DNA of 64,000 nucleotides, taken from contig JAUNSO010000005.1 in assembly GCA_030539165.1 (NCBI GenBank), positions 1 through 64,000 of the forward strand, read 5' to 3'. The translations under genes were made by a program, and so were the position numbers. The notes beneath the pieces were generated by a model. The model was given only the letters and a program-made list of their open reading frames with translations. It was not told where the DNA came from and ran no database searches. The DNA comes from a bacterium. Its GTDB lineage: Bacteria > Bacillota > Clostridia > Lachnospirales > Lachnospiraceae. How positions within the stretch are numbered: position 1 is the stretch's first letter; every line of letters begins with the position of its first letter. Positions 34,684 through 49,210 of this stretch are shown here, piece by piece.

Positions 34684-34703
34684 CATGACCTCCGTATCGT
34701 TGT

Positions 34704-34838
34704 CAGAACTCTCCCCTCTACACTAGGAGTATCGCAACGAGAACTCTCCCCTCTCCATTAGGGGTGTCATCGTTCGGGGTGGGTTCCCTTCGGGAAACCC
34801 CGAACATATTCATTGCTTCGCAACGAGAACTCTCCCCT
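34704..34838. repeat. Short direct repeats and a GC-rich hairpin
   Basis: A 20-bp repeat (CGCAACGAGAACTCTCCCCT) occurs at 34733-34752 and 34819-34838, with a partial copy (AGAACTCTCCCCT) at 34705-34717. Between the full copies is a GC-rich hairpin with GTTCGGGG / CCCCGAAC arms (about 34771-34804). It looks like a dispersed repetitive element rather than coding sequence. Confidence 0.6.
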
Positions 34839-34958: not shown

Positions 34959-35296
34959 ATGGACAAGAGTAACCTGCAAACATAGATTAAATTCCAAAAC
35001 ATGGCTTCCCAATCAGCCAATCTCCTTGCTTTGGACAAGCTATGTCTCTGCCACTTGATAAGCATTCCAAACATCACAAGATTTCCAAACTTTTTGGAAT
35101 GCTTATCATCACTATTCGCCCCACTTCTCCAAAGAAGAGCTTCCTTGTATCTATAATGATAGCTGTTTGGAATCGCCATCAGTAATACATCACATCAGTT
35201 GTCCAATATAGGCCAGCTACGAAAAGCTGATCAGTTATTGAACAACAAGCTATTATAAATCAAGTGATTCAAACTATGTGAAAGAGATCATTCACT
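34959..35296 (-). repeat. Left arm of a long inverted repeat flanking the catalase island
   Basis: Homologous, in opposite orientation, to 37739-38078, with long identical stretches and scattered substitutions and small indels. It contains a 78-codon open frame (35179-34946) that begins MAIPNSYHYRYKE and has no ribosome site. A 16-bp perfect stem lies at 35056-35071 / 35093-35108. TTGGACAAC-like ends (35206-35198, and a degenerate ATGGACAAG at 34959-34967) bound about 248 bp of it. Confidence 0.85.
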
Positions 35297-35304
35297 GTTC
35301 ATAG

Positions 35305-35342
35305 AAAAAAGTTCTGGAAGAGAGTTTTCTCTCAACCAGAAC
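35305..35342 (-). terminator. Terminator of the cytidylate-kinase-like gene
   Basis: GTTCTGG / CCAGAAC outer stem, an AA/AA internal loop, GAGAG / CTCTC inner stem with a TTTT loop, then six T residues on the minus strand. It lies 80 bases after the kinase stop, just inside the left repeat arm. Confidence 0.8.
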
Positions 35343-35421
35343 CCTTTATTTTATATAAGTTTGGCAGCAATCCCTGTACAAAATGAATTGCGAAACGATT
35401 TGTGTGCAGCAACTGACTGCT

Positions 35422-36027
35422 TCAGCTGACACCCACAATATCAGCCAGTATGCTGACGCAGCGGTCAATGCCAAGTGAACTGCTGTCCAGACAGATATCG
35501 AAATGAGTGCTGTCACCCCATTTATAGCCGGAATGGGTAGTATAAAAGCCACTGCGGCGTTTGTCGGTTTTCTTGAGTACCTCGACAGCTTCTTCATGGG
35601 TCAGCTTTTCATTCTGGATAGAACGCTGAATGCGAAAATCTGTGTCGGCATGAATGAATACTTTCAGACAGTCAGGGTGATCTTTCAATATATAACCGGC
35701 GCATCTGCCGACAATGACACAAGGGTCAGCTGCCGTTACTTCTTCAATGATATTTTTTTCTTCATAGAAGAGTCTGTCAACCAGAGGCATATTATTAATA
35801 TTTCTGGAAGAACCACCAAATGGTGTCTGGGATAGATTGAAAATAATACTGTTCGGCCCTGTTTCTTCAAGATCAGAAATATAGATATGCGGAATCTCCA
35901 GCCGTTTTGCTGCCATAACCAAAATATTGTGGTCGTAGAGCTTATAGTTCAGAGCCTTGGCAAGACGCCTTCCAATCTCATTGCCACCGCTGCAGTATTG
36001 ACGCTCAATCGTGATATACTGATACAT
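35422..36027 (-). CDS. Cytidylate kinase-like family protein
   Basis: 201 aa, the usual length of the Cytidylate_kin_2 family. It starts MYQYITIERQYCSGGNEIG: the family's P-loop-like segment, here with Cys where Gly is common and, as usual in this family, no classical Walker lysine. Central FxxxD/FIHAD and RxxxR features resemble nucleoside monophosphate kinases, but the substrate is unknown. Start ATG 36027 is chosen because AGGGG lies eight bases upstream. It follows the catalase gene by 219 bp; a TATACA-17-TATAAT promoter candidate lies near 36131-36159. It lies inside the inverted-repeat island. Confidence 0.85.
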   Translation of the reverse strand: MYQYITIERQYCSGGNEIGRRLAKALNYKLYDHNILVMAAKRLEIPHIYISDLEETGPNSIIFNLSQTPFGGSSRNINNMPLVDRLFYEEKNIIEEVTAADPCVIVGRCAGYILKDHPDCLKVFIHADTDFRIQRSIQNEKLTHEEAVEVLKKTDKRRSGFYTTHSGYKWGDSTHFDICLDSSSLGIDRCVSILADIVGVS

Positions 36028-36246
36028 TTCAATCGCCCCTTTCATCATTTTGTACATTGTGACTCACTATATTCAAAGTTTTGATCAATTCATTGGATTA
36101 GTATTGATTTAATTGTAACTATATTATAGCAGAAATCAGTATAATTGTATAGGCGAAAACGTCATTACAGCCACATTGTCAGTTATCAATAAAATCAATG
36201 CGATTATAATCAACCAATAAGCAGCAATGCATTTTCCAAAAATCAA

Positions 36247-37683
36247 TTACAGATTAGGCTTATACATCCTCATAGCCCTCAGAACCATATTGGCCCATTC
36301 AGGAGAGGCTTTTGCAAGGTGATTGATGACGCGTTGAATAATATCACGCTTACAGGTACAGAGTTCAACAGCGATGTTATCGGCCAGGTGTGCTTTCTCC
36401 TCCGGAGAATAAGAGAGATATTGCAGACCCGCCTGATAGAAATCATTTTGCTTTGTAATGGGTGTGCGTCCTATATATCCTTCAATATACTCCGGTTTTG
36501 CCTGCGGAATATCTGCCGGACATGGACGGTTGTTATTTAGTGAGTTCGGAGAATAATTAATTGGCTCAGGGTCGAACAGATAAGTCATTTCACCATCTCT
36601 CTGATTATTATCCACAGGAGAGATAGAACGATTCACCGGCAGCTGTGCAAAGTTGGCACCAATACGGTAGCGCTGCGTATCAAGGTAGGAGAAAGAACGT
36701 CCCTGGAGCATTTTATCTGCTGACAAGGCAACACCCGGTACGATGTTACCCGGACAGAAAGCAGATTGTTCTACCTCAGCGAAAAAGTTCTCAGGATTTT
36801 TATTCAAAGTCATCATGCCGACTTTGATCAGAGGAAAACGATCCTCAGGCCACGTCTTGGTATCATCCAGTGGATCAAAAGGCAAATCATCCAGATCACA
36901 AGTCTGCATGATTTGCACACACAGCTCATACCGTGGAAATTTTCCGCATTTGATTGTTTCATATAAATTACGGACTGCTATATCAGGGTCAGATCCGGCG
37001 AGTCTCTCGGCCTCCTGACGTGTAATGGTCTCCAGTCCCTGCATTGTCTTCCAGTGATACTTAATATAGAACCGCTCTCCATTTGCATTGATCCAGATGT
37101 AAGTGTTGACTCCAAATCCGTCAATGTGTGAGTAATCCTTGATCGTACCACGGTCAGAATAAAGCCATGCAATCATATGGGTTGATTCGGGCGTCAGCGA
37201 AATAAAGTCCCAGAAACGTTCAGGATCCTTCAGATTGGTGTTTGGTGCAGGCTTTAAGGAGTGGATGACATCAGGAAACTTGATACCATCACGAATAAAA
37301 AATACAGGCAGGTCATTGCCGACGATGTCATAGATGCCCTGATTCGTATAGAATTTGACTGCGAACCCTCGTGGATCACGCACTGTATCCGCAGATCCTT
37401 TGGAGCCGATGACGGTAGAAAACCGGACAAAAACTTTTGTTGTATGATTTGCACCTTGTAGAAAATCAGCAAATGTATACTTGCTCATGCATTGGTATGT
37501 CGTGAACTGTCCAAAGGCACCGGCACCCTTGGCATGTACGACACGCTCCGGTACACGTTCTCTGTCAAAGTGAGCAATTTTATCAATCTGATGGATATCC
37601 TCCAGCAGTACCGGGCCTTCAGGGCCTACAGTCAGCGAATTCATATCATTTGGGACAGGTCGTCCCAGTGAATCTGTCATCAT
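36247..37683 (-). CDS. Haem catalase, small-subunit (clade 3) type
   Basis: Splits hydrogen peroxide to water and oxygen in the cytoplasm. 478 aa, full length for the small-subunit group. Catalytic residues are in place: distal His50 in ERVVHAKGAGAFG, Asn123 in VGNDLPVFFIRD, and the proximal haem ligand Tyr333 in RSFSYLDTQRYRIG with Arg329. Every segment of the catalase core is intact, so it should be functional if haem is available. AAGGA lies about ten bases before the ATG. Catalase is uncommon in strict anaerobes of this group. The long inverted repeats around it suggest acquisition as an accessory module. Confidence 0.96.
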   Translation of the reverse strand: MMTDSLGRPVPNDMNSLTVGPEGPVLLEDIHQIDKIAHFDRERVPERVVHAKGAGAFGQFTTYQCMSKYTFADFLQGANHTTKVFVRFSTVIGSKGSADTVRDPRGFAVKFYTNQGIYDIVGNDLPVFFIRDGIKFPDVIHSLKPAPNTNLKDPERFWDFISLTPESTHMIAWLYSDRGTIKDYSHIDGFGVNTYIWINANGERFYIKYHWKTMQGLETITRQEAERLAGSDPDIAVRNLYETIKCGKFPRYELCVQIMQTCDLDDLPFDPLDDTKTWPEDRFPLIKVGMMTLNKNPENFFAEVEQSAFCPGNIVPGVALSADKMLQGRSFSYLDTQRYRIGANFAQLPVNRSISPVDNNQRDGEMTYLFDPEPINYSPNSLNNNRPCPADIPQAKPEYIEGYIGRTPITKQNDFYQAGLQYLSYSPEEKAHLADNIAVELCTCKRDIIQRVINHLAKASPEWANMVLRAMRMYKPNL

Positions 37684-37738
37684 ATTATGAGATTCCTTTA
37701 ATCATTGTTCTATAGATAGAGTATGAATTTTAGGGCAT

Positions 37739-38078
37739 TTTGTGAATGATTTTCCTTATATCAGTTTAAATCACTTTATTGATAATAGCTTGTTGTTCAA
37801 TAACCGATCAGTTTGGCGCAGCTGGCCTATATTGGACAACTGATGTGATGCATTACTGATGGCGACTCCAAACAACTATCATTCTGATACAAGAAAGCTC
37901 TTCTTTGGAGAAGTAGAGGTAAATAGTGATGATAAGCATTCCAAAAAGTTCGAAAATCTTGTGATGTTTGGAATGCTTATCAAGTGGCAGAGACATGACT
38001 TGTCCAAAGCAAGGAGATTGGCGACAAAAAAATCAGGTTTTGGAATGCAATCATGAATATATGAGAGGTGTTGTCCAA
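37739..38078 (+). repeat. Right arm of the long inverted repeat flanking the catalase island
   Basis: Mirror partner of 34959-35296. It contains a 65-codon frame (37859-38056) that begins MATPNNYHSDT, homologous to the left-arm frame but kept in register only by two compensating indels, with no ribosome site. A perfect 16-bp stem lies at 37930-37945 / 37967-37982. TTGGACAAC (37832-37840) and its exact complement GTTGTCCAA (38070-38078) bound 247 bp. The inner part also overlaps the region upstream of the catalase gene. Confidence 0.85.
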
Positions 38079-38221
38079 AAAGTGGTTAGCCCCGAAAATT
38101 TAAAAATAAGTTGCTAAGATAAGAGTGACTATATAATACGCATATTACTTGCGTATTATAATCTCGTTCTCGCAATATAGTCCATTTTCTTTTGGTAATA
38201 ATCAACAAAGTGCAAAAACAA
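38079..38221. other. Intergenic spacer with an AT-rich palindrome
   Basis: Holds an 11-bp perfect inverted repeat TATAATACGCA / TGCGTATTATA (38132-38142 / 38150-38160) with a seven-nt centre. No gene is visible. Confidence 0.5.
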
Positions 38222-47621: not shown

Positions 47622-48383
47622 TCACATAGTACTTTCTTCCATGGAAATCCCTGCTGAATACAGTAATTGTTTCGTATATTCATGCTGCGGATGGAAATAA
47701 ACATCATCTGTGCTGCCCTGCTCCACGATCCTGCCGCCTCTCATGACCATCACGCGGGTGCATAGCTGATATACCACCTTCAGATCATGGGATATAAAAA
47801 GCATGGCGATTCCCAGATCATGATTGATCTGCTTCAAAAGCTCTATGATCTGTGCCTGTACCGTCACATCCAGGGCTGATACCGGTTCATCTGCAATCAG
47901 CAGCTGGGGGTTCAGTACCAGAGCTTCTGCAATACAGACTCTCTGCCGCTGTCCTCCTGACAGTTCATTTGGGTATCGTTCTCCGAATTTTTCGTCCAGT
48001 CCGACTCTGCGCAATCTGCGCAGTACCTTGGCATTTCTCTCTTCCTCTGTCATCCCGCCTCTGATGCGAAGCGGTTCTTCGATGATCCAGCCCACTTTTT
48101 TTGCAGGATTCAGCGAGCCATACGGATCCTGAAATACCATCTGCGGATGTTCGGAGTGATGGAGGATGTTTCCGTCAATATCCTTGACCATTCCGAGGAT
48201 GGCTTTTCCCAGTGTCGACTTTCCACAGCCGCTCTCCCCGACCAGACCTACGATTTCCCCTCTTTCCATATGAAAGGAAACATCATGCAGGATCTGCTTC
48301 CGTGCTTTTGCATCGGCGAACAGTCTTTCCTTCTCTTTGTAATATGCATTTAAATGACTGACTTCCAGAATCAGATTATCCAT
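47622..48383 (-). CDS. Peptide/nickel-type ABC transporter ATPase (DppF/NikE position)
   Basis: 253 aa. Walker A GESGCGKST, Q-loop MVFQDPYGSLNP, signature LSGGQRQR, Walker B LLIADEP and the H-loop LFISHDL are all present. It is shorter than typical OppF/DppF (about 320 aa) because the C-terminal extension is missing; NikE-like ATPases have this length. Last gene of the five-gene importer. The ribosome site is weak (GTGAG). Confidence 0.92.
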   Translation of the reverse strand: MDNLILEVSHLNAYYKEKERLFADAKARKQILHDVSFHMERGEIVGLVGESGCGKSTLGKAILGMVKDIDGNILHHSEHPQMVFQDPYGSLNPAKKVGWIIEEPLRIRGGMTEEERNAKVLRRLRRVGLDEKFGERYPNELSGGQRQRVCIAEALVLNPQLLIADEPVSALDVTVQAQIIELLKQINHDLGIAMLFISHDLKVVYQLCTRVMVMRGGRIVEQGSTDDVYFHPQHEYTKQLLYSAGISMEESTM

Positions 48384-48412: not shown

Positions 48413-49210
48413 TTATCTCATCTCAAAGTTTCTGACAATCTTCGGTATTGCCTTGATCAGATTCTGTGTATACAGCTCCTGCGGGTGATGAAAGATCTGT
48501 TCTGTTTCACCCTGTTCCACGATTCTGCCCTGATACATCACAAGGACGCGCTCGCACAGCTGCTTTACCAGACTCAGATCATGGGATATAAAAAGAATCG
48601 CCGTATTCTGCTTATGATTAATGCGCTTCAACAGCTCTATGATCTGTGCCTGCACCGTCACATCCAACGCCGTTGTCGGCTCATCAGCAATCATCAGCTT
48701 GGGTTTACAGATCACAGCAGCCGCAATCATCACTCTCTGGCGCATACCACCTGACAGCTCATGCGGATACATATGGTATACCTTCTCCGGCTCTGGAAGC
48801 TCCACATCTGACAGTGCCTCAATCGCCTTTTCATATCGCTCCGTCTTTGTCATGCCGGTATGGATACGCAAGCTCTCCTCCACCTGCCAGCCAATCTTCC
48901 TGACCGGATTCAGAGATGTCATAGGCTCCTGAAAGATCATGCTGATTTCATTGCCCTGCAGACTGCGCAGCTTTGCACGCTCACATGTCAAAAGTTCCGT
49001 TCCGTTAAAAACAATCTGTCCCCTCTTCTGCATGTCATGTCGTGACAGCAGCCCGGCAATCGCCAGTGCACTCATCGTCTTGCCTGATCCGGACTCTCCG
49101 ACAATGCCTACGATATCCCCCGGATCCATGTGCAGATCAAAGTCATATACGACCGTTTCCGGTATCAGATGATCATGAAATTCAATATTCAGATCTACAA
49201 CATCCAGCAT
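48413..49210 (-). CDS. Peptide/nickel-type ABC transporter ATPase (DppD/NikD position)
   Basis: 265 aa. Walker A GESGSGKT, Q-loop IFQEPMTSLNP, signature LSGGMRQR, Walker B LMIADEP and H-loop LFISHDL. Like its partner it lacks the long C-terminal extension of Opp/Dpp ATPases. AAAGGAAGG precedes the ATG, which overlaps the permease stop by one base. Confidence 0.92.
   Translation of the reverse strand: MLDVVDLNIEFHDHLIPETVVYDFDLHMDPGDIVGIVGESGSGKTMSALAIAGLLSRHDMQKRGQIVFNGTELLTCERAKLRSLQGNEISMIFQEPMTSLNPVRKIGWQVEESLRIHTGMTKTERYEKAIEALSDVELPEPEKVYHMYPHELSGGMRQRVMIAAAVICKPKLMIADEPTTALDVTVQAQIIELLKRINHKQNTAILFISHDLSLVKQLCERVLVMYQGRIVEQGETEQIFHHPQELYTQNLIKAIPKIVRNFEMR

Follow-up and report, generated by a model that had tools for sequence, protein, structure and literature searches.

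Does the catalase gene of this Lachnospiraceae chromosome move, or flip, together with the inverted repeats around it? In the window, the whole 64,000-nucleotide stretch of DNA analysed here, the first-pass annotation had described nearly identical inverted arms on either side of a 2.4-kb segment. The arms are indeed there: pairwise alignment of 37742-38052 (plus strand) with 35295-34985 (minus strand) gave 87% identity over 313 columns (E ~1e-103). Outward of 38052 and 34985 the alignment stops, except for a terminal box at the expected distance (38071 TTGTCCAA in the right arm, 34959 ATGGACAA in the left arm). The two genes that had been reported between the arms were found at full length, and the expected neighbours, an RluF-like pseudouridine synthase gene and gdhA, flank the segment. 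Each arm contains an element with eight short boxes, placed by a ladder scorer, and the features of the segment are as follows.

34959..35206, minus strand: left-hand eight-box element, scoring 56.8 of 60 on the ladder, with box starts at 34959, 34991, 35031, 35064, 35094, 35125, 35167 and 35199
35207..35295, minus strand: inner flank of the left arm, outside the element, homologous to 37742-37831 in the arm alignment
35303..35345, minus strand: terminator-like inverted repeat with a T run, downstream of the kinase gene, read from the sequence
35422..36057, minus strand: cytidylate-kinase-like protein (Cytidylate_kin2), 211 aa, full length, PF13189 E 1.7e-50
36247..37683, minus strand: haem catalase, 478 aa, full length, PF00199 E 3.1e-176, also PF06628
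37742..37831, plus strand: inner flank of the right arm, homologous to 35207-35295, with a degenerate box at 37793
37832..38078, plus strand: right-hand eight-box element, scoring 57.7 of 60 on the ladder, with box starts at 37832, 37865, 37905, 37938, 37968, 38000, 38040 and 38071
37930..37982, no strand: predicted central hairpin, an inverted repeat that folds, with boxes 4 and 5 in 16-bp perfect arms

The 9-bp words said to bound the right arm are present at 37832 and 38070; position 37955, halfway between them, is also the centre of the perfect 16-bp palindrome 37930/37967. With this central palindrome excluded, each half of an arm was compared with the reverse complement of the other half: the match exceeded 500/500 shuffles in the right arm and 479/500 in the left. 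Each arm is therefore a quasi-palindrome in itself. The homology that had been noted beyond the 247-bp unit was also recovered, as 77 of 91 columns match between the inner flanks, about 90 bp inward. Because these 90 bp, common to both arms and specific to this locus, lie outside the element, the arms were probably derived from one another by inverted duplication at this place and diverged there, and two independent insertions are the less favoured source. The divergence is uneven: only 1/52 box positions in the aligned part changed between the arms, against 38/262 elsewhere (p = 0.01), the latter comprising 24/171 spacer columns and 14/91 inner-flank columns. The boxes of the arms are held by something while their surroundings change. 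Other repeats in the window are a 21-bp direct repeat (TCGCAACGAGAACTCTCCCCT type), present three times at 34694-34838, just upstream of the rluF-like gene, and a 300-bp direct repeat with 71% identity at 47674-47973 and 48468-48767, within two adjoining ORFs that are probably tandem gene duplicates.

A strong catalase match (E 1e-100) was found in 3/59 other genomes of the family, all in other clades and at 42–49% identity, and in the catalase tree the protein groups with Anaerosporobacter, Catenibacillus, Sarcina ventriculi and other Clostridia, in a patchy clade of anaerobic Clostridia. The branches of this clade are long, suggesting that any transfer was not recent. The third-position skew is −0.22 for the kinase gene, 0.03 for the catalase gene and −0.01 for gdhA, while nearly all other minus-strand genes of the window are positive; the kinase and catalase genes thus lack the leading-strand skew that most of their neighbours show, which fits foreign DNA and once-inverted DNA alike. 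The proposal that the catalase was acquired is thus plausible from its rarity, its tree and its skew, and is weakened by the skew of gdhA outside the arms, which is low too. The suggested functional link between kinase and catalase found no support, as kinase relatives are common, a single genome holding several paralogs, and a kinase gene close to the catalase was absent from all 80 catalase loci that were compared. Models of anti-phage defence matched neither gene, and the terminator-like repeat was not listed by the consensus scan.

Dispersed bacterial repeats are usually recognised through the likeness of their copies. By this route the arms would pass for unique sequence: a DNA search with the whole arm returned only the two window arms from the same genome and nothing convincing from 98 relatives, 397 genomes of the family, phages and plasmids. 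Two weak matches (L003 and L118, the latter within a solute-binding protein gene) were judged to be chance. A search with spaced words gave a different picture. The terminal word TWTWTTGGACAAC occurs at 32 places in the genome, several of them near contig ends, and one set of words recurs there with unchanged spacing, although the intervening DNA barely aligns. The half unit TTGGACAA N62-67 TTGGACAA was found 34 times and the quarter unit TTGGACAA N24-27 TTCCAA 65 times, against 0 for each in the reversed control. The ladder scorer placed 24 copies at 47.7–59.4 of 60, compared with 36.4 for the best stretch of reversed sequence; a further complete copy was found at C64:18124-18371, and C18 and C24 each hold a partial copy next to an assembly gap. 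The arms are therefore two members of a dispersed family of eight-box repeats whose number in this genome, at least 27, is a lower bound. The search for further copies thus failed with the whole arm and succeeded with spaced words within the genome itself. Outside it, box patterns stayed at the level of the reversed control in 396 other genomes of the family and 390 others of the class, the genus of the host being represented by one genome. In viral contigs the three-box pattern was absent and a 16-mer scan gave 33 stretches, the word being short enough for these to match by chance; phages and plasmids held nothing similar to the element. Although strict in its geometry, this family is nearly invisible to similarity searches, and elements of this kind may be widely missed. 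A literature search on palindromic intergenic repeats in Lachnospiraceae returned nothing.

The element is ~247 bp long and dyad-symmetric, with eight TTGGA-type boxes in alternating orientation. The box words are TTGGACAA/ATTCCAA and their complements, in the order TTGGACAA, ATTCCAA, TTGGACAA, ATTCCAA and, beyond the dyad, TTGGAAT, TTGTCCAA, TTGGAAT, TTGTCCAA. Start-to-start distances are 32–33, 40, 33, 30, 32, 41 and 31–32 bp, fixed to about 1 bp, and the spacers measure 24–25, 33, 24–25, 23–24, 24–25, 33 and 24–25 bp with few exceptions. Over all pairs of copies the boxes are 93% identical and the spacers 36% (26% if shuffled). Spacer identity rises to 60–68% within related subfamilies, which points to copying of the element, and to 77% between the window arms; near-identical recent copies were not seen. 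The copies on C89 and C28 carry one extra unit at 71–73 bp. That on C89 (L259 289-603), which adjoins a tRNA-like sequence, has an extra unit of 71 bp, indicating that the number of units can vary. TTGGA cores in the same orientation are separated by 73, 63 and 72–73 bp, which amounts to 6.95, 6.0 and 6.9 turns of a helix with 10.5 bp per turn, and from these three distances we infer that the boxes are helically phased.

The 24 scored copies are intergenic among ordinary genes, except that one, on C84, overlaps the last 25 bp of a gene. Their neighbours include codY, a dapA-type gene, ispD and genes for type III glutamine synthetase, phosphofructokinase and fabF/fabG-type proteins; 18/20 scanned neighbour proteins belong to a Pfam family and 0/20 is a transposase. 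The genes around the copies have no common orientation, an argument against a plain terminator role. Target-site duplication showed no convincing excess in 22 copies (1/42 settings at p 0.02). The MITE-like character that had been proposed for the arms thus holds insofar as they belong to a dispersed, intergenic family of inverted repeats, and lacks the target duplication.

Words shared at fixed distances suggest recognition by a putative protein. Because the distances between boxes of the same orientation approximate 7, 6 and 7 helical turns, this protein would assemble on duplex DNA. We consider it an even bet (probability about 0.5) that this dispersed, MITE/ERIC-like element, restricted to one lineage, carries putative protein sites in its boxes, with the catalase pair between two copies by history. 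Most likely, the family would owe its distribution to an ancient spread as a non-autonomous element served in trans, the copies would now be kept with their boxes intact, and the catalase and kinase genes would lie between two of them through history alone. This reading is weakened by the lack of target duplication and of near-identical recent copies, by the small number of distances (three) behind the helical phasing, and by the central hairpin with its copy-specific complementarity, which suggests that strand folding is also involved. A more specific proposal, which we hold only tentatively, is that one dedicated putative protein reads the eight phased TTGGA boxes at ~30 sites and folds or recombines the chromosome; if true, such a lineage-specific, genome-wide nucleoprotein system would leave the DNA between the boxes free to vary. 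In any case, the box ladder offers a handle for finding the protein that reads it.

The constraint on boxes and spacing in place, while spacers drift, would also be expected if a lineage-specific host DNA-binding protein assembled on the elements as an architectural or regulatory array, kept for a host function with its mobility in the past. The many housekeeping genes beside the copies and the modular extra units of 71–73 bp agree with this; the mixed orientations of the surrounding genes and the confinement to one lineage speak against it, and we regard it as a minority possibility to be taken seriously. The element could instead act by folding, in RNA or as a cruciform, into one long hairpin whose four stems are conserved. 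Nested box pairs formed in most predicted folds (24, 15, 15 and 21 of 24), the central stem is kept by differing complementary sequence in the window arms, the C86 copy and subfamily A, with one compensated change in the C88 copy, and the spacers somewhat stabilise the single-strand folds (mean z −1.8). These predictions make the central hairpin likely to be real. A fully paired hairpin found no support in the spacers, as their pairing across the dyad is not above the expectation from unrelated copies (601 vs 607.8). Against column-shuffled controls the z values of the two strands are nearly equal (−2.34 and −2.32), giving no sign of a transcribed sense, and Rfam had no match over the arms. 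A long RNA hairpin is therefore possible and not favoured, and structured RNA or a cruciform as the main role of the element seems improbable.

For the catalase segment itself, mobility seems unlikely on the present evidence. With an intact gene of patchy distribution enclosed by two inverted copies, the segment does resemble a composite MITE-type transposon in which the arms carry both genes as one unit, and integrons flanked by 439-bp MITEs provide a precedent, in which the MITEs have one and the same sequence and direction and are bounded by 5-bp duplications (PMC3934969). In our case the family lacks target duplication and none is visible by eye at the arm ends, no transposase, second catalase-kinase pair or empty site lends support, the segment occupies a single place in the genome, the arms are 13% diverged, and the 90-bp inner flank common to both is better explained by duplication in place than by two insertions. 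The composite unit that had been envisaged is thus very unlikely. Recombination between arms 2.4 kb apart could instead flip the genes, and the skew of the kinase gene is the lowest among minus-strand genes of the window. Sequence divergence between repeats lowers homologous exchange, so the 13% between the arms is expected to reduce it; the near-zero skew extends to gdhA, and no recombinase was found nearby. We give inversion hardly any weight. The locus illustrates that genes between two inverted repeats need not form a mobile unit.

The lineage-restricted element that we prefer resembles several known repeats. Like ERIC, it is an intergenic, dispersed, imperfect palindrome of about 100–250 bp. 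ERIC copies align along their whole length, whereas eight-box copies have only boxes and spacing in common, with spacers at 36%. Tn7-type ends have several like protein sites at set distances, as does each half of the eight-box element; in the latter the sites alternate in orientation and both halves are fused. MITEs are likewise short, non-coding and dispersed in many copies with inverted termini (here TTGGACAA...TTGTCCAA), and two copies may surround a gene segment as in the window, but the eight-box element lacks target duplication and near-identical copies. REP/BIME sequences are dispersed, extragenic and species-specific, and have been suggested to be non-autonomous elements and protein-binding sites (PMC2817692). 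The eight-box element is also dispersed and extragenic, with regularly spaced sites in alternating orientation; REPs are palindromes of 20–40 bp (PMC2817692), whereas eight-box sites are non-palindromic words of 7–8 bp and the whole element is one dyad of fixed length. Because each class fails on a tested feature (target duplication, whole-length homology and self-contained palindromes, respectively), the element is filed as neither MITE, ERIC nor BIME. Integron attC sites were also considered and set aside, because the ends of the boxes do not match the attC core.

The assembly seems to break at the elements, perhaps because of strain variation or folding: 6/24 copies begin less than 300 bp from a contig start (at base 38 of C7, 41 of C64, 83 of C80, 206 of C84, 79 of C86 and 289 of C89) and two partial copies lie near N runs (C18:7313-7412 and C24:4504-4603), where chance would give ~0.5. 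On C88 (L260), a second Cytidylate_kin2 gene (2062-2646) is followed 19 bp downstream by a copy at 1799-2043, much as the left arm lies downstream of the window kinase; this adjacency is probably a coincidence. The copy on C45 (L314 1351-1595) is flanked by a fabG-like and a fabF-like gene that run in the same direction, and seems to sit within an operon. On C83, three copies (L261, L262 and L263) at 38150, 68066 and 98418 are spaced nearly evenly, by ~30 kb.
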